A DNA stretch of 34,833 nucleotides, taken from the NCBI GenBank assembly GCA_025352065.1, contig JANXUC010000033.1, forward strand, positions 1 to 34,833, in the 5' to 3' direction. The stretch is from Acidobacteriaceae bacterium. Its GTDB lineage: Bacteria; Acidobacteriota; Terriglobia; Terriglobales; Acidobacteriaceae. A program made the position numbers and the translations under genes. Positions 21,159-34,636 of this stretch are shown in pieces. Each line of letters starts with the position of its first letter. Positions within the stretch are counted from its first letter, which is position 1. The notes beneath the pieces were generated by a model, which was not told the origin of the DNA, did no database searches, and saw only the letters and a program-made list of their open reading frames with translations.

Positions 21159-21629
21159 CGGCAGCGTTTCTCTGCCGTTCAGACTGTGTGGCGGAGAAGC
21201 GTGAATTCGAACTTCCGGTACAGCTTTGCATCCCTGGACCTTATGAACATGGCGTTCCAATCCACCCCTCCGAGCGAAGTTGAGGACGGCGTGTGGATTC
21301 TGAGTCCGAAGCGCGTAGCGATTCCAAGTTGGTTCGGCGATGTAGATGGTTCGTCTGCCGATCTAAGAAAATACGCCTGGGCCAATGAAAACACGGAGCT
21401 TAGACAGTTGCCGGAGAATCTTGTTAAAGACAACTTGCCCATACCAGTTGGTCCGGTTTCCTCGATTGTTTTTGGCGAACGAAACGCGACTGTGGCCGCC
21501 TTCAAAGGAAGAGGTGCAGCGAAACCTCAGTCCAGGAATCGGTGGACTGACGGCAACGACTGACTGCCCGCATGCCGTTCAGAAAATACGAACTCTTTCT
21601 CTGTCGCGCCTCGGAAGTGCTAGCTGATT
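21159..21629. repeat. Dispersed repeat, copy A (471 bp), contains a tRNA-Ser scar
   Basis: This block is a diverged direct repeat of 31880-32225. The outer parts align: the left end with cgttcagactgtgtggcgga and the tRNA-like piece, and the right end from gccggagaatcttgtt to gcaacgactgactgcccgca, gttcaga, ctctttctc and gctgatt. About 160 bases in the middle are unique to copy A. The frame at 21141-21563 crosses all this and has no recognisable product. The left edge abuts the broken caspase gene. Confidence 0.75.
21189..21238 (-). pseudogene. Decayed 3' end of tRNA-Ser (copy A)
   Basis: On the minus strand the sequence reads CAAAGCTGTACCGGAAGTTC then GAATTCACGCTTCTCCGCCA. This preserves the variable-arm end, the T-loop GTTCGAAT and the acceptor 3' end plus CCA of a serine tRNA, but the T-stem no longer pairs. 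It aligns base for base with copy B (31910-31949) and with the better preserved fragment at 30401-30460. Confidence 0.65.
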
Positions 21630-27333: not shown

Positions 27334-27647
27334 TCTCTCCGTCTCCAGAAGGCGTTGGTTCCAGCTTTCGGTGCTCACCCCCAAAAGGCTGAAGGCTAGT
27401 CCTAGACCCACCCACCGGCAATCACCCGCCTTTTTTGCGTCGGTCTTTCCCTCCTGGCACCATACGTGCCCTATCCAATGCCGAGTCCTGGCTTTGGTCC
27501 CTGACTCTGCTCAAGGAACTAACAACTTAGCCGTGACGCCCGCGAAAACGTCGACAGAAATCTGGGCAGCACTGAAAGATTCACGGGCAGTTGAATTGGC
27601 GGTCCCTTGGCGCATGGGGCGATGGCTTTGAGCTCAAGGAGGGTCGC
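27334..27647. other. 314-bp intergenic region between activator and hydroxylase
   Basis: I see no gene here; the frame at 27371-27631 lacks a ribosome site and shows no recognisable product. The region contains a candidate sigma-54 promoter (separate entry) and, just before the hydroxylase ATG, a strong AAGGAGG. No clear binding palindrome for the activator was found besides the inverted ggcac/gtgcc that overlaps the promoter. Confidence 0.5.
27455..27469 (+). promoter_or_regulatory. Candidate sigma-54 (-24/-12) promoter
   Basis: The bases TGGCAC-catacg-TGC have GG at 27456-27457 and GC at 27468-27469, the 12-base spacing of the TGGCACG-N4-TTGC consensus; the T before GC is kept. It lies 178 bases before the hydroxylase start and directly behind the gene of an NtrC-like activator. 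A chance match is possible. Confidence 0.4.
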
Positions 27648-28318
27648 ATGCTCTGGATCACGCACATCGCGGCTTGGGTGGTAAGGTCGATCATCGTCGC
27701 CGAGTTGTTGGGATACCTGCTCCACCGGCTTTTGCACAACGGATGGATTCCGTGGCTGAGCAAGAGCCACATGGAACATCACATGGTTCTCTACGGGCCC
27801 CTGCAAAAGCAGCGCCCAAGCGAGAAATACATGGACTCAACAACCGGCAAGATCGCCCTCGGGAATATCGGGCTGGAATGGATCGCCCCGAGCGCCGTGA
27901 TTCTGGCCATTGTGGTTACAGTACTCCGCTTGCTCAGGGTCCCTTCATCGGATCAGGCAGTTTCTATCGGGACGATCCTGGCGTGGAGCTTCCTGATGTT
28001 TAGCTACCTCCATGATCGGATGCACGTGAAGAACTTCTGGATGGAACGGAATTCGATTTTGAAAGCCTGGTTCCGGGCCGCACGGCGGCTGCACGACATC
28101 CATCACCGGGTCCTAAACGATCGCGGCTTGATGGATAAGAACTTCGGCATCGGTTTTTTCTGTTCGACCGGCTGTTTGGCACCTTATCTCTCGAGCAGAG
28201 TCCTTTCAATCCTCGTGATTACGCGGCCGCAAGGGAGAGATTTAAGCATGTGGAAACACCGAGGCGCGTTCAGGGTGTCGGCCGAACCCAGATGCCCCCG
28301 CAGCTTAGATGTCTGTAA
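27648..28318 (+). CDS. Fatty acid/sterol hydroxylase family membrane protein, frameshifted at T6C
   Basis: A di-iron membrane oxygenase of about 223 residues if the frameshift is read through. The four histidine clusters of the family are complete: H26-x3-H30 (HRLLH), H41-x2-HH45 (HMEHH), H122-x3-H126 (HDRMH) and H149-x2-HH153 (HDIHH), placed between hydrophobic helices. The ATG at 27648 follows AAGGAGG. After GIGFF the zero frame turns to nonsense. The -1 frame instead gives LFDRLFGTLSLEQSPFNPRD and on to a TAA at 28316-28318, the expected C-terminus. The switch lies at 28154-28160, T_TTT_TTC, in the phase of a -1 slippery site; a one-base loss from a T7 run would look the same. Substrate unknown (fatty acid, carotenoid or sterol). 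Confidence 0.8.
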
Positions 28319-28721
28319 GAAAACTAGACAGACAAAGCCAGGTGATTTCACAAATGAATTCGAAGGAGCAAACGAGATGCAAACAAGCGTTTCCATTTTT
28401 CTGTCTATTCTGATGTCCGAGTACACCAAGAAGCACCGCATCAAGCAAGGCGGAGGACTCCAACGACACGTTCGCAGCCGTCAACACGCATCCGGTAGAA
28501 AAGTTGAGTTACTTGAAGAAGGAAAAAAACAAAAACAAAATGATGCTGAACGACGCTACAGCGGGCGAATTGTCTGTGCCGCACGGGCAGATAGAGGTCA
28601 ATTAGGACAAAACAAATCTGAAAACTCACAAGGAGATAGTACAGTGCAAAAAACGAAGGTTGTGACAGGTATTCTCTCAGGGCATCGGCGTGCCACAAAA
28701 CAATCCATGAAGGAGAAGATC
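28319..28721. other. Intergenic region that is open in the hydroxylase zero frame
   Basis: These 403 bases join the hydroxylase and the propeller-like gene in one misleading 877-residue frame. Apart from the possible small ORF at 28377-28605, I see a ribosome-site-like motif with GTG (AAGGAGATAGTACAGTG, from 28631) whose sequence recurs at 30498-30535. This looks like a duplicated leader. No strong promoter is visible. Confidence 0.45.
28377..28605 (+). pseudogene. Small ORF, probably frameshifted, unknown product
   Basis: GGAG precedes an ATG that begins MQTSVSIFLSILMSEYTKKH. Around 28445-28455 the coding look moves to the +1 frame, with G/C-rich third positions, reading SNDTFAAVNTHPVEKLSYLK and ending LSVPHGQIEVN at a TAG. 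A one-base change would join both halves into a peptide of about 75 residues. No family is recognised; it may be a remnant. Confidence 0.3.
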
Positions 28722-30224
28722 ATGAGATTCTGCCTGATCATTGCAGCGTTCGCTCTCTTGCCCCTGACAACAAGCGATGCGCAGTCCGTGCACATCTTGC
28801 AGCACGCTATATTGGGCAACAGCACCGAAGACATTACGTTTGTCGGAAACGGCCCACTCGCGGGCCAGGTCGCCATCATGGACGGATACGTGGTCCGTGG
28901 ACTTCTGCCAAAGAGCGCCGCCGCCCACGCACTCTTCGACGTGCGGCGCTTGGGCATAGGTATTGCGCCCCGAGGCCTAACCTATGTCAATTCGTCACAC
29001 CTTTTTGCGCTGAACGACGGTATCCAGAGAACCAAGCTGTTCCTTGCTAACGATCATGGGCAACCGAAGGGAACGCGCACGATCCGATACCTCAACGGTT
29101 ATCTACCGGATTTCCTCGAAGGACTAGGCTACATCTCCGAAAATGCGACGTCGTTCCCAGACCATATCCTCCTGTCGACAATAATCTTTTCTCCTCAGGC
29201 ATCTCGAATAGAAGTGTTGAGAAAAGACGGAACGGTGGTGGCTGAGATCCTCCCGGCGGAGCCGTTGGGGTCAAGCTATATCACCGGGGTTAGCTACCTG
29301 GCTCCAGATCACATTCTGGTTTCGAGCGGCAATGGCATCTGGGAAATCGACTTTGCCGGCAACATCCTGGCTGGGCCGATCACACTGTATGGCGTGGGAG
29401 ACATCGAGGGCCTCGCCCAGTTGAGCAACGGCAACATCGTGGCTGCCGACCATGACGCCGGAAAGATTTTCTTCTTCGATAAGAATCTCAATAGACTGCC
29501 TAGCAAGGACCGCAGTTACAAGGTCGGTATCGGGGTGAGCACGCCTGAGGGAGCGGCTTGGAATACCGACACGAACCAACATCTCATTGGCCATGCGCCC
29601 ACGGTCCAGGCCACAGAGATCGTCAGTATCCCACCGACGCTGGATAGCGCGACGCAAGTGGTGGATCTGGCCAGGTATGGGTTTGACGCTCTCCAACGGC
29701 TTTCCTACCTGTCCGACGAGCACCTCATTGCTGCCGCTATTCGCTACTCTCCGCATGCAATTGTTCTGTTCGACAACAGCGGCAATCTCGTTCAGCAGAT
29801 TGACGTCTCGGCGATCGGAAGTCCCAGGGCGATCGCTTACATCCCGACCACTAAACAGTTTGCGGTAGGGTTTTTCCAAGCCCCCCTCCAAGTGAGTATC
29901 CTCGACCGCAACGGCACTTTGGTCCGAACCATTGACCTGAGTTCGATGGGCATCAGCAGAGTGGACGGTCTGACCTTCTTTGACCCCGCGGATCCCAGCG
30001 GCGGGAAGTTCCTCTTGGTCGTGAACGACGCCACTCAAGTCTTCCGGCGATTCGCCATGGTCATCGACTTCAATGGCAACTTGCGCCGCAAATTCGATGT
30101 TCGGAAAACCTTTGGTTTCTTAGAAGCGAACGACGTTGGCACAATTAGCACTGGACCACAGAACGGTGCTTTTAGCATGGTGGATTCCGGTGGCAGCGAG
30201 ATTGCTATCTTCCGCTTCCAGTGA
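28722..30224 (+). CDS. Secreted beta-propeller-like (NHL/SMP-30-like) protein
   Basis: A 500-residue exported protein. The ATG at 28722 follows AAGGAG and opens a signal peptide (MRFCLIIAAFALLPLTTSDA). The body has repeated strands of the type DHILVSSGNGIWEIDFAGNI, GNIVAADHDAGKIFFFDKNL, SPHAIVLFDNSGNLVQQIDV and APLQVSILDRNGTLVRTIDL. That is, blades ending in a hydrophobic-D-x-x-G-N/T turn, as in NHL or SdiA-regulated/SMP-30-like propellers. No catalytic residues can be named; a ligand-binding or lactonase-like role is conceivable. The gene is in frame with the upstream hydroxylase frame only because of the frameshift there. Confidence 0.65.
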   Translation: MRFCLIIAAFALLPLTTSDAQSVHILQHAILGNSTEDITFVGNGPLAGQVAIMDGYVVRGLLPKSAAAHALFDVRRLGIGIAPRGLTYVNSSHLFALNDGIQRTKLFLANDHGQPKGTRTIRYLNGYLPDFLEGLGYISENATSFPDHILLSTIIFSPQASRIEVLRKDGTVVAEILPAEPLGSSYITGVSYLAPDHILVSSGNGIWEIDFAGNILAGPITLYGVGDIEGLAQLSNGNIVAADHDAGKIFFFDKNLNRLPSKDRSYKVGIGVSTPEGAAWNTDTNQHLIGHAPTVQATEIVSIPPTLDSATQVVDLARYGFDALQRLSYLSDEHLIAAAIRYSPHAIVLFDNSGNLVQQIDVSAIGSPRAIAYIPTTKQFAVGFFQAPLQVSILDRNGTLVRTIDLSSMGISRVDGLTFFDPADPSGGKFLLVVNDATQVFRRFAMVIDFNGNLRRKFDVRKTFGFLEANDVGTISTGPQNGAFSMVDSGGSEIAIFRFQ

Positions 30225-30400
30225 ACCCGATAGGACGAGCAGGCGCTTTCCCAAACCCGATTGCGCCTTGGCAGTCCACGACAGTGCTAAGCCGAGGCGT
30301 ATCAAGGTGGCAGCACCGGCTGAACCGAGAACACTAACTTGCATCGAGCGAACATCGCTCATTGGGTTTCTAAAAGAGAAGTCCTTGAAATTAAGGGGAC

Positions 30401-30460
30401 TGGCGGAGAGGGGGGATTCGAACCCCCTGTACAGCTTTTGACCGCACAACGGTTTAGCAA
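30401..30460 (-). pseudogene. tRNA-Ser(GCU) 3' fragment, likely attachment-site scar
   Basis: On the minus strand the sequence begins in an anticodon loop (TTGCTAA, anticodon GCT) and runs through ACCG, a class II variable arm (TGTGC...GTACA), a T-arm GGGGG-TTCGAAT-CCCCC and the acceptor 3' strand with CCA (CTCTCCGCCA). The 5' half of the tRNA is missing; upstream bases (GACAA) do not restore the anticodon stem. Integrases that target tRNA genes typically leave such a piece, from the anticodon loop to the 3' end, at the far end of the element. Confidence 0.75.
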
Positions 30461-30563
30461 TTGTCTTTCCTTGCGCCAGCGGTAGAACAATATTCAGAAG
30501 GAGAAAGTTCAGTGCAAAAACAAAGACAGTGACAGAGATTCCCTTAGTACTTGCTGTTGATAG

Positions 30564-30584
30564 TGTTCGCAGAATGTGCGAACA
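30564..30584. promoter_or_regulatory. Inverted-repeat operator in front of the HTH gene
   Basis: TGTTCGCA-gaatg-TGCGAACA is a perfect 8-bp inverted repeat with 5-base spacer, ending 9 bases before the preferred HTH start (30594) and overlapping a possible earlier ATG (30576). Its place fits autorepression by the HTH protein. TTGATA (30557-30562) just upstream could be part of the promoter. Confidence 0.5.
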
Positions 30585-30593
30585 TATTCTTGT

Positions 30594-30806
30594 ATGTGGC
30601 GCAAGGAAGACGTGATCCAGCAACTCAAGACTTCCCAAGGCGACCGTTCGCTCCGGGCATACGCCGACACCCTCGGGTGCTCCGCGTCCTACCTCTGCGA
30701 CCTGTACAACGGGAACCGGGAGCCCGGGGAAAAGATTCTCAAGCAACTCGGACTCGCGAAAAAGGTCACGAAAACCGTCACCTACGTCAAAAGGAGATGG
30801 CGATGA
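30594..30806 (+). CDS. Small HTH (XRE-like) DNA-binding protein
   Basis: A 70-residue protein, MWRKEDVIQQLKTSQGDRSL then RAYADTLGCSASYLCDLYNG and NREPGEKILKQLGL. The middle is a lambda-repressor/XRE-type helix-turn-helix, in which LRAYADTLGCSASYLCDLYNG covers the two key helices. It closes with a basic tail (KRRWR). Such stand-alone HTH proteins are common in phages and mobile elements. The start at 30594 leaves the inverted repeat upstream free; the ATG at 30576 would put six codons on the operator. The stop overlaps the next start (ATGA), so the two genes are translationally coupled. Confidence 0.75.
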   Translation: MWRKEDVIQQLKTSQGDRSLRAYADTLGCSASYLCDLYNGNREPGEKILKQLGLAKKVTKTVTYVKRRWR

Positions 30807-31501
30807 GCAAAGTACTCATAAATTTCGTTCAAGACCGGTCTGGTTCGATGGCCAGTTGCTGGGACGAGACCCTGAGCGGGTTCAGGAAGTTCGTCGAGGA
30901 TATGCGCGAGAAGGGCCCTAAGGACGGGGTCGAATACCTGTTCTCGCTGACCACGTTCGACACGCTGGTCGACACCCCTCTGGTCGCGGTCCCGATCGCG
31001 GACGTTGACACTAATGTCCTCGCCGAGCACGGCCCCCGCGCAGGCACCGCGCTTTATGACGCCGTCGGGGCCACCATCGAAAACACCAGCGCCAACGACC
31101 GCGGGGCCGAGAAGATCATCTGCGTAGTGGTGACGGACGGCCACGAGAACAGCAGCCGGGAGTGGACCAAGGACCGTCTCTACAAGACGGTCGACGCCAA
31201 GCTAAACCTGGGGAATTGGACGTTCGTTTATCTGGGGACGCAACCGGAGACTTGGGACGATGCTGGAGCGATCGGTGTCAGGGCGGGATCGACATCCCTC
31301 TACCGGTCGGATATGGCAAGAGCTGCATACGGTATTACGTCCGCGGCCCTGCACGAAATGGCGCGCTCTGAGCAGATGGGGAGCGACAGCCTGTTTAGCG
31401 AGCACGCCAAGGCTGATGACGCGGCGGCTGCCGGAATGCATGTAACCCCGGCCAAGCCTTCCCCCGAGCCCAAGGCAGGTTCGGGTCCGAAGGCTCCTTA
31501 A
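30803..31501 (+). CDS. von Willebrand factor A domain protein, phage-like
   Basis: A 232-residue cytoplasmic protein made almost wholly of one vWA domain with a complete metal-ion-dependent adhesion site: D11-x-S13-x-S15 (QDRSGSM), T82 (RAGTALYDA) and D112 (VVTDGHENSS). It lacks signal peptide and membrane segment and ends in a Pro/Lys/Ala-rich tail. Similar single-domain vWA proteins with the TDGxENSS phrase occur in phage genomes, where their job is not known. The start at 30803 fits AAGGAG at 30791-30796 and overlaps the HTH stop by four bases. The pair looks more GC-rich than its surroundings and is bracketed by tRNA-Ser scars, which suggests transfer. Confidence 0.8.
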   Translation: MSKVLINFVQDRSGSMASCWDETLSGFRKFVEDMREKGPKDGVEYLFSLTTFDTLVDTPLVAVPIADVDTNVLAEHGPRAGTALYDAVGATIENTSANDRGAEKIICVVVTDGHENSSREWTKDRLYKTVDAKLNLGNWTFVYLGTQPETWDDAGAIGVRAGSTSLYRSDMARAAYGITSAALHEMARSEQMGSDSLFSEHAKADDAAAAGMHVTPAKPSPEPKAGSGPKAP

Positions 31502-31879
31502 CGGCACGGGAGAAACACCGTCGGTTCTACCCCCAACTAGATAGCCCGTCAAGAAGAGCGCACGACCCGGGCGGGAGATCAATGAAGCCACGGCGAAGTG
31601 CAATGCCGTACCTGGGTGGTCCCAAAAGCGGCCTGCACTCCTGAAACGCCCGAGCCGACCTGAAACCCCGCCCAAATCCCTGTAGATTGGGCTAATTGGT
31701 GAAACATTTCGCATCAATTACATGCATCGCAGGGATTCGGAGAGTCGGACTACCGCTTTGGAGCCTGGAGAAAAAGGCCAGAAAGAATGGTTACGCGTCT
31801 TGAGCAGTCAGCTTTCTCCGGTCCGGTTTGCCGAGCAGTTGTGGGAATTCCGGCGTATTTCGCTTGTTTCGCAACGGTA
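31502..31879. other. 378-bp gap after the vWA gene
   Basis: I see no gene here: the long minus-strand frame over 31202-31717 is a GC-rich shadow of the vWA gene, and the plus frames lack starts and family motifs. No clear terminator hairpin with a T-run was found. The stretch joins the HTH-vWA pair to repeat copy B. Confidence 0.45.
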
Positions 31880-32225
31880 CGGCAGAATTTCTCTACCGTT
31901 CAGACTGTGTGGCGGAGAAGAGTGAATTCGAACTTCCAGTACAACTTTGCGTTTTTGTTTAAGTGGCGTGTTTTCATTTTTTTTGGCGTACTCATCTTAG
32001 ATCGACGGCCGCCGGAGAATCTTGTTCAGACAACTTGCTATACAAGGGAGTCCGGTTTCGCAGATTATTTTGGCAAAGGAAATGCGATTGTGGCGACCTT
32101 CACAAGGAGAATTACAGCGAAACGTCGGTCGAGAAATCGGTGAAGTTACGGCAACGACTGACTGCCCGCATTGCGTTCAGACAATGCGAACTCTTTCTCC
32201 ACGCGCTCGAGAGTATTGGCTGATT
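31880..32225. repeat. Dispersed repeat, copy B (346 bp), contains a tRNA-Ser scar
   Basis: Direct, diverged repeat of 21159-21629. Shared parts run from cggcag and tctaccgttcagactgtg through the tRNA-like piece, then from gccggagaatcttgtt to gcaacgactgactgcccgca, cgttcagacaatgcgaac and gctgatt. It is shorter than copy A because the middle differs. The frame 31787-32143 crosses it and resembles the equivalent frame of copy A only as a by-product of the DNA repeat. Confidence 0.75.
31910..31949 (-). pseudogene. Decayed 3' end of tRNA-Ser (copy B)
   Basis: The minus strand reads CAAAGTTGTACTGGAAGTTC then GAATTCACTCTTCTCCGCCA. It is nearly identical to copy A and aligns with the tRNA-Ser(GCU) fragment at 30401-30460 over variable arm, T-loop, acceptor strand and CCA. 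The T-stem is broken, so it is not functional. Confidence 0.65.
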
Positions 32226-32285
32226 TCTTGCAATGGGCCATCCTGCGGTTCACAACCCGGCTTCTGAGTGTAATCGCCTGTGGCT

Positions 32286-32421
32286 GTTGAAAAAGTCCGG
32301 ATTTCCGCAAAACAGTTGGAATTTGAGGAATAGAAAATGTCTAGGCACCCGGAGAAAATCGTTTGTAGGGCATCCTGACGCGATTTTTTTCTGCACATTT
32401 TTCGAGCGTGACTTTTTCAAC
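32286..32421. mobile_element. MITE-like element with 12-bp terminal inverted repeats
   Basis: GTTGAAAAAGTC (32286-32297) and its perfect complement GACTTTTTCAAC (32410-32421) bound a 136-bp, AT-rich, non-coding segment. The similarity reaches about two to three more bases outward with one mismatch. Ends of the type TGTTGAAAAAGTC are common in transposase-bearing insertion sequences. An inner inverted pair (gaaaatcg / cgattttt) would help it fold. No transposase is present, so it would move only in trans. I could not settle a target duplication. Confidence 0.55.
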
Positions 32422-33658: not shown

Positions 33659-34636
33659 ATGCGCAAGTCTCTCTCGCTGTACCTCTTCGGGCCAACACGC
33701 CTCTTGCTTCTTGCAGGTCTAGTCTTGCTACCACAGCTTCTGTTAGCGCAATGGAACGCCACTATCGGTGCGCAGAGTTCCACTCACGCAAGGCAAGGCC
33801 TGGCTTTCCTGCCGAACGAGATTTGGATTCACGCAGGTGACTCAATCACTTGGACCATGGCCACCGATGAACCCCACACTCTCAGCTTTCTGACAGCAGG
33901 GCAGATACGGAACCCGTTCTTCGTCGGATGCCCCGGCTTCAATTCCAGTCCCGCTACCTACGACGGCTCCACCTGCGTCACCACCCCACCCATGGGCAAT
34001 GGCCAAGTCTTTACCGTGTTTTTTCCCGCCACCGGCAACTTCAAGGTGGTTTGCCTGTTCCACGAAAATATGACCGGGACAATCCATGTTCTCGATACCT
34101 CCGCACAACTGCCTCACGACCAGGCCTTCTATGACAACAAAGCACGGACCGAAGCGGGCGCGCTGCTGAACGACCTGGATCAGATGCAGTCGATGCAACA
34201 CGGTTCCGGCAATAGTGTGATCGTCGGCGGCGGCGAGGTTATAGCCACCGCGGGCGGTTCGGACACCCTCAGCATCATGCGCTTCAAGCATCAGGCGATC
34301 ACGGTGCATGTAGGCGAAACGGTGGAATGGACCAATGTCGACTCGATTACTCCTCACACCATCACGTTTGGTACGGAACCGCCGAATCCGATACCTCCGT
34401 CCCCGAACGTCACCGTAGACGCCGACGGGGCCCGCCACGCCACCATCACTTCGACGTCGGATAACGTACATTCCGGCTTCATTCAGGCCGCACCGCAAGA
34501 TCGCGTCGGCCTCGCCCAGGCGCCTCCCGGAGTGACCCGCTTTCGGGTGACGTTTACGAAGCCTGGCAACTATCCCTATAAGTGCGCCCTGCACGATTTG
34601 CTGGGCATGAAGGGAGTGGTTCGCGTTATTCCTTGA
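33659..34636 (+). CDS. Secreted protein with two cupredoxin (type 1 copper) domains
   Basis: A 325-residue exported blue-copper-like protein. GGAGG precedes the ATG at 33659, which opens a hydrophobic signal peptide (residues about 1-30, ...LLLLAGLVLLPQLLLA). Each half has a full type 1 copper ligand set. Domain 1 has H73 (DEPHTLSF), then C132, H135 and M138 (CLFHENM). Domain 2 has H233 (TPHTITFG), then C309, H312 and M317 (CALHDLLGM). Both motifs lie at the ends of beta-sandwich domains as in plastocyanin. The two sites suggest electron transfer or copper binding in the periplasm. Upstream in-frame codons from 33569 overlap the TetR gene and are not used. The divergent TetR gene probably regulates it. 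Confidence 0.88.
   Translation: MRKSLSLYLFGPTRLLLLAGLVLLPQLLLAQWNATIGAQSSTHARQGLAFLPNEIWIHAGDSITWTMATDEPHTLSFLTAGQIRNPFFVGCPGFNSSPATYDGSTCVTTPPMGNGQVFTVFFPATGNFKVVCLFHENMTGTIHVLDTSAQLPHDQAFYDNKARTEAGALLNDLDQMQSMQHGSGNSVIVGGGEVIATAGGSDTLSIMRFKHQAITVHVGETVEWTNVDSITPHTITFGTEPPNPIPPSPNVTVDADGARHATITSTSDNVHSGFIQAAPQDRVGLAQAPPGVTRFRVTFTKPGNYPYKCALHDLLGMKGVVRVIP

Follow-up and report, generated by a model that had tools for sequence, protein, structure and literature searches.

A phage-linked HTH-vWA gene pair with a probable operator of its own in an Acidobacteriaceae chromosome

Small vWA proteins encoded beside a partner gene are known from the ARG, ARPP and macro systems, many of which are controlled by a transcription factor (PMC9503650), and from MoxR-vWA pairs and ternary systems, for which a vWA protein with a metal ion-dependent adhesion site (MIDAS)-type site has been proposed to capture peptides (PMC7159879, PMC7824862). 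There, vWA proteins are put forward as Mg2+-dependent peptide-binding chaperones of conflict-type systems (PMC9503650, PMC7159879), and TROVE proteins together with RNA ligases are reported as RNA-repair tools of phages (PMC7824862). A different layout, in which a small Cro/XRE-type helix-turn-helix (HTH) regulator is encoded next to its effector, is that of HipBA, C-protein restriction control and CapH-type operons. We analyzed an HTH-vWA gene pair in a 34,833-nucleotide stretch of DNA (the window: contig JANXUC010000033.1, assembly GCA_025352065.1) from an Acidobacteriaceae bacterium. It resembles the first systems in its small vWA gene beside a partner gene, the MoxR-linked systems in its MIDAS-type vWA, and the HipBA-like operons in its small HTH protein, its gene order and a probable operator in its own promoter. 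The vWA belongs to phrog_7371, a family that it shares with vWA proteins of Myxococcus phage Mx1, Pseudomonas phage phiK7A1 and Microbacterium phages.

We read this pair, with moderate confidence, as an autorepressed accessory ('moron'-type) cassette that large phages with tRNA genes have left behind in the bacterial chromosome; its effector or co-regulator would be the vWA protein. The literature searched, which left out most subscription papers, did not describe a phage pair of this HTH-vWA kind.

Conservation of the pair and its phage kinship

The initial annotation had proposed that a small HTH gene and a vWA gene are coupled by an ATGA overlap and preceded by a perfect inverted repeat. 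Both open reading frames (ORFs), the overlap (30803-30806) and the repeat were recovered (Table 1). Five comparisons of the HTH and vWA genes with their phage homologues gave synonymous divergences (dS) of 3.7 or beyond correction and nonsynonymous divergences (dN) of 0.32-0.45, indicating that both ORFs are real genes, constrained over the span to those homologues.

A profile of the HTH matched at 10 of the 121 vWA loci from viruses, directly upstream of the vWA gene in nine and within the same ORF in one (L155; L, G and C numbers are our own handles for loci, genomes and contigs). A later scan found it in 7 of 15 loci, four of them from contigs already found and three from one new lineage (L226-228). 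After near-copies were merged (L057/58, L061/62, L226-228), the pair was present in nine viral lineages. It also occurs in chromosomes: vWA genes were found at E <= 1e-15 in 5 of 200 genomes of the family, source genome included, and all five had the HTH, mostly overlapping. Related vWAs (E <= 1e-12) were present in 13 of 396 genomes sampled across the phylum, with the HTH only in G000 and G009. Plasmid vWAs amounted to 24 records, with identities below 60%.

In a 51-row vWA tree, the HTH-paired proteins formed two clades. Clade A (support 100/99) comprises the window vWA and those of L008, L055, L056, L057, L059 and L060; L008, whose upstream sequence is truncated, is included by kinship. The other clade (99/97) comprises G009, G050, L155, L061, L064 and G039. 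The window vWA grouped with that of phage L056 (100/85). In a quick tree of 156 rows, the pair label needed two changes, compared with 12.6 in shuffles. Phage contigs and chromosomes are mixed in both clades, as would be expected if the pair had repeatedly been transferred from phages. Adjacency counts, clades and phage kinship thus show that the pair is a conserved, phage-linked unit, and the vWA was not found to belong always to one known larger operon. In L155, a single ORF encodes the HTH, a Cx2C...Hx4H stretch and the vWA in this order and contains an internal AAGGAG...ATG; Pfam gave no name for its middle part. This fusion and the strict adjacency elsewhere argue for direct cooperation between the two proteins.

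The window vWA matched phrog_7371 over residues 2-201 (E 1.9e-36), as did proteins of L055, L064, L046, Mx1, phiK7A1, Paschalis and Phosso. This family is listed as being of unknown function, in line with the earlier remark that vWA proteins of this kind occur in phages without an assigned role. The Pfam VWA score was 16.8 bits, under the cut-off of 23.8. The predicted structure, with a predicted local distance difference test (pLDDT) value of 95.8, resembles integrin I domains in its fold (Z about 20). Residues D11, S13, S15, T82 and D112 of the metal site (DxSxS...T...D) are all present; judged by them, the protein keeps an intact MIDAS-type site, as fits the metal-dependent binder initially suggested.

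The window HTH shares 61% identity with its phage counterpart in L057 and 56% with that in L056. Its AlphaFold model (pLDDT 87.9) has predicted helices at residues 4-15, 20-27, 31-38 and 46-51. The fold neighbours of the model are XRE proteins (phage repressor, HipB, C proteins, ClgR and CapH), all at E >= 0.045, and profile scores were weak (Pfam HTH_3, 12.8 bits with a cut-off of 23; phrog_3037, 0.002). The HTH of L064 had no match among isolate phages at E <= 0.05. Related small HTHs also head two-gene units with other second genes: a DnaJ-like ORF below the Pfam cut-off in L197, an ORF judged HNH-like by eye in L200, and an ATGA-overlapping ORF without a named family in L201. Such HTHs may be general leaders of phage accessory cassettes.

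Five of the seven clade-A vWAs (L008, L055, L056, L057 and L059) have [RK]W[RK] as their last residues, followed by a TAA stop, and no downstream ribosome site accounts for these ends. Within the filtered ORF set, only the HTH and the vWA carry such a tail in L039 (2 of 39 ORFs), L041 (2/37) and L059 (2/15). The count was 1/13 in L056, whose HTH had been dropped by the overlap filter, and zero in L060 (0/12), L061 (0/10) and L064 (0/16). We considered the RRWR end of the HTH as a tail signal shared with the vWA and rejected this idea, as it is encoded by AGGAGATGG, the Shine-Dalgarno sequence of the vWA gene, which is identical in L039, L041, L056 and L059.

A probable operator upstream of the HTH gene

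The best repeat in the 60 bp preceding the HTH start codon of the window had a p value of 0.008 relative to shuffles. An open search of the 60 bp before each of 12 HTH start codons yielded repeats with perfect 7-bp arms in five loci (window, L055, L059, G009 and G050; Fisher p 0.0023). The half-sites follow the recognition helix of the HTH. Loci whose HTH has a class-I helix, CSxxYL (window, L056 and L057), have TTCGCA half-sites (4 against 0.08 expected), and those with a class-II helix, ISKQYL (G050, G535 and L055), have GTACG half-sites (8 against 0.37 expected); p is 5e-5 in each case, for motifs picked by eye after inspection and with a plain shuffle as the control. G535, the only such locus found after the motifs had been chosen, fits the class-II pattern. 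L056, of class I, also has one GTACG.

In the 4.25-Mb genome, the perfect class-I site occurs once, at the HTH promoter, and three further sites have one mismatch. The best match in the phage contig G483, with one mismatch, is at the same place before the HTH of that phage. As half-sites track the helix class and the perfect site is present once in the genome, the HTH probably uses this repeat as its own operator, which we read as serving mainly the HTH-vWA pair itself. On these sequence patterns, the compact, self-regulated layout described initially is probably correct. A consensus scan of positions 30200-32300 yielded no sigma-70 promoter at its threshold.

tRNA genes, tRNA-Ser scars and genomic surroundings

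The pair lies at most 1 kb from a tRNA gene or array in seven of the eight phage contigs. For random placement, P was 1.2e-6 with phage kinship ignored and with the listed tRNAs, at least 26-33 in each of six contigs and at least 2 and at least 3 in the other two, taken as lower bounds; doubling the near-tRNA fractions on that account gave 4.7e-4 at 1.5 kb. In the ninth lineage, L226, found later, the pair is among 15 tRNAs, and it thus lies among tRNA genes, or no more than about 1 kb from them, in eight of nine viral lineages. Among the first 80 loci, the retrieved stretch contained a tRNA for 8 of the 9 vWAs paired with the HTH and for 19 of the 71 without it (Fisher p 5e-4; 0.004 after two near-copies were dropped). 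Two of the eight phage contigs encode a tyrosine integrase (PF00589); they carry L055 and L056 and are the closest two to the window.

Two side observations concern these arrays. ARAGORN called CUA-anticodon tRNAs as tRNA-Pyl, one in the L040/L041 phage and two in the L155 phage; they are possible amber suppressors. In L226 (2421-3246), the vWA is shortened to 103 residues beside an opposite-strand tRNA-Thr, the pair being in a tRNA array.

In the window, the cassette is flanked by tRNA-Ser fragments, and ARAGORN found no complete tRNA there. The left fragment is 95% identical over 61 bp to an intact tRNA-Ser(GCT) gene on another contig of the assembly (C71:570-662; the window contig is C110), and the right one (31910-31948) is 79% identical to it over 39 bp. 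A third fragment, absent from the initial annotation, is present at 21189-21227 (85% over 39 bp). The right scar belongs to an older repeat that is also present at 21.2 kb, and the two flanking scars are therefore not a matched pair of attachment sites. The locus has thus accumulated scars that differ in age. The tRNA-Ser fragments 1.5 kb apart that had been reported to bracket the cassette are thus both present, but they are not the two ends of one element, and a 1.5-kb element with matched tRNA ends was rejected. On C71, the start of an integrase gene adjoins the 3' end of the intact tRNA-Ser (phrog_1, E 5.6e-10; no Pfam match for this fragment at E <= 0.01).

Table 1. Positions of the cassette, its signals and the repeats in the window
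Feature	Position	Strand	Remarks
Left copy of old repeat	21159-21229		Contains decayed tRNA-Ser fragment 21189-21227
Left copy of second repeat part	21410-21601		Pairs with 32011-32199
tRNA-Ser(GCT) 3'-part fragment	30401-30460	-	Probable attachment-site scar, youngest of three
Putative -35 box TTGATA	30557-30562	+	No clear -10 in the window copy
Probable HTH operator TGTTCGCA-gaatg-TGCGAACA	30564-30584		Inverted repeat, perfect 8-bp arms
HTH gene	30594-30806	+	70 aa, starts ATG TGG CGC AAG; small protein, probably XRE/Cro-type, probable autorepressor
Shine-Dalgarno AGGAG of vWA gene	30792-30796	+	Within last HTH codons; encodes RRWR tail of HTH
vWA gene	30803-31501	+	232 aa, single-domain, phrog_7371 (unknown function)
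Old repeat unit with decayed tRNA-Ser fragment	31880-31950		91.5% to 21159-21229
Second part of old repeat	32011-32199		82% to 21410-21601

Elsewhere in the window are ordinary chromosomal genes (RNB ribonuclease, uroporphyrinogen decarboxylase, amine oxidoreductase and outer-membrane beta barrel). A short stretch before the HTH gene (30494-30547) is 78% similar to 28626-28680, inside the ORF at 27591-30224, and contig C51 carries a copy, 87% identical, of the end of a plastocyanin-like gene (34300-34632).

Relatives of the vWA that fall outside the two clades have varied neighbours. In the annotation of phage Mx1, a TROVE protein is encoded 3.5 kb from the vWA, with tRNAs nearby, and the deposited annotation of phiK7A1 has a tRNA deaminase, a DNA ligase and an RNA ligase around it. 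A phage run in L152 (975-3619) comprises TROVE-Ro60 (E 2.5e-26), a phrog_7371-type vWA and a phosphoesterase-like ORF just under the Metallophos_2 cut-off, and it looks like an RNA-repair cassette. Among relatives from the same phylum, the vWA adjoins ARPP-1 in L139, L140 and L143 and is encoded in one ORF with a macro domain in L141. Within clade A, a DUF433-DUF5615 (PIN-like) gene pair lies downstream of the vWA gene of an Acidobacteriota relative (L008:563-1260).

Possible function, alternative readings and known systems

The cassette plausibly reached the chromosome by integration at tRNA-Ser(GCT). The comparative footprints suggest that the HTH binds the inverted repeat in its own promoter and holds the two-gene operon at a low level. 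With its predicted fold and metal-site residues, the vWA should bind a peptide or a protein. It is probably both the effector and the partner of the HTH, such that binding of its target would change repression. In the phage, a unit of this kind in the tRNA region would most likely serve host takeover or counter-defence, or perhaps tRNA or RNA maintenance; the support for such roles is weak. The partners of related vWAs and the literature make an RNA- or conflict-related role plausible by analogy. A more specific idea, to which we give little credence, is that the pair is a sensor-effector guarding phage tRNA arrays: the vWA would recognise a protein of the host, such as a defence factor that attacks tRNAs or a partner in RNA repair, and would then relieve the HTH, so that the cassette is induced when the tRNA supply of the phage or lysogen comes under attack. 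If so, a bacterium keeping the cassette would gain a tRNA-damage-responsive module.

Several observations weigh against a phage accessory cassette under its own repressor. This HTH is missing from 111 of the 121 viral vWA loci and from all four isolate-phage loci examined, and G039 and L226 carry broken copies. As to the operator, the L055 repeat, one of the five, resembles a terminator hairpin; L056, L057, L060, L061, L064, L155 and G039 were each non-significant in the open search; and class-I near-matches (<=3 mismatches) were about as frequent as those of a control pattern in four phages (8/5, 3/4, 8/6 and 9/8), in addition to the choice of half-site motifs by eye. As to the tRNA link, the L060 pair is 28.7 kb from the nearest listed tRNA, the sole exception among the eight phage contigs, and the counts behind the proximity test are lower bounds. 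The eight phage contigs yielded no convincing phage attachment site that would match the tRNA-Ser scar (best E 0.009), and the C71 integrase fragment has no similarity to the ORFs around the G482 and G483 integrases (best E 0.55). The window vWA also lacks the [RK]W[RK] tail of most clade-A members.

Whatever the cassette does in phages, its copy in this genome could be a functionless phage remnant, which we consider rather doubtful. Its position between scars of different age, the rare and patchy occurrence in 5 of 200 family genomes and the lack of a promoter at the threshold of the scan would fit such a remnant, and because the vWA tail is gone and two other copies are broken, the window copy may indeed be turning into one. 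Nevertheless, both ORFs, the Shine-Dalgarno sequence, the metal-site residues and the perfect operator are intact; the dN/dS comparison spans the whole path to phage and cannot date the constraint. A lysogeny or superinfection switch, with the HTH as a small prophage repressor, the vWA as its anti-repressor or sensor and an operator controlling more than its own promoter, is unlikely in our view. The predicted Cro/XRE fold of the HTH, the L155 fusion, the integrases of the two nearest phages and the tRNA-site scar are compatible with this role, whereas PF00589 was found in only two of eight phage contigs, the pair sits in a tRNA region, and both the source genome and G483 have their best operator match at the HTH promoter.

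The initial annotation had also likened the layout to toxin-antitoxin or phage-defence modules, a likeness that the searches did not bear out. PADLOC 2.0.0 gave no match for the window or L046 vWA at E <= 1 and weak ones for the L039 vWA (0.047) and the window HTH (HTH_VI, 3.5e-4), and profile scans including Pfam and PADLOC matched the pair to no toxin-antitoxin family. A module in which the HTH is an autoregulating antitoxin and the vWA a growth inhibitor thus appears improbable, even with the ATGA overlap, the gene order, the probable autoregulation, HipB among the low-significance fold neighbours (E 0.055) and the gene pair after the L008 vWA in its favour. The many viral vWA loci without the HTH would be odd for a toxin needing an antitoxin, and vWA is not known as a toxin fold. 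We find it equally hard to see the vWA as a peptide-binding chaperone of an ADP-ribose-related conflict system, the role proposed for vWAs beside ARG, ARPP and macro proteins in section 3.8 of PMC9503650. The distant relatives linked to ARPP-1 or a macro domain favour it, but they fall outside the two HTH-pair clades, the paired HTH has no Nudix or WYL sensor, and the 18 window ORFs scanned gave no ARPP, ARG or macro match.

Read as an autorepressed phage accessory cassette, the pair offers a handle on a subset of phrog_7371, whose members have an HTH partner of their own, a probable operator, a fused form and a set position next to the tRNA genes of phages. The vWA ligand and the trigger of the operon thereby become testable with a two-gene construct. 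It also bears on what phage tRNA regions carry besides tRNAs.

Compared with the ARG, ARPP and macro systems, the window pair has a bare HTH regulator and is phage-borne, and no ARG, ARPP, macro or rhodanese-phosphatase partner was found among those 18 ORFs. They gave no MoxR AAA+ match either, in which the pair differs from the MoxR-vWA systems; a sigma-54 activator encoded 5 kb away has an AAA+ domain of another type. Ro60/TROVE proteins combine a vWA with RNA-binding HEAT repeats, whereas the pair has no TROVE domain. Within phrog_7371, the HTH-paired vWAs form clades of their own. In HipBA, C-protein and CapH-type operons the effector is a kinase, a nuclease or a peptidase, and here it would be a vWA protein. 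We rate the pair as a probably self-regulated accessory cassette of phages in which the effector is of an unusual kind.

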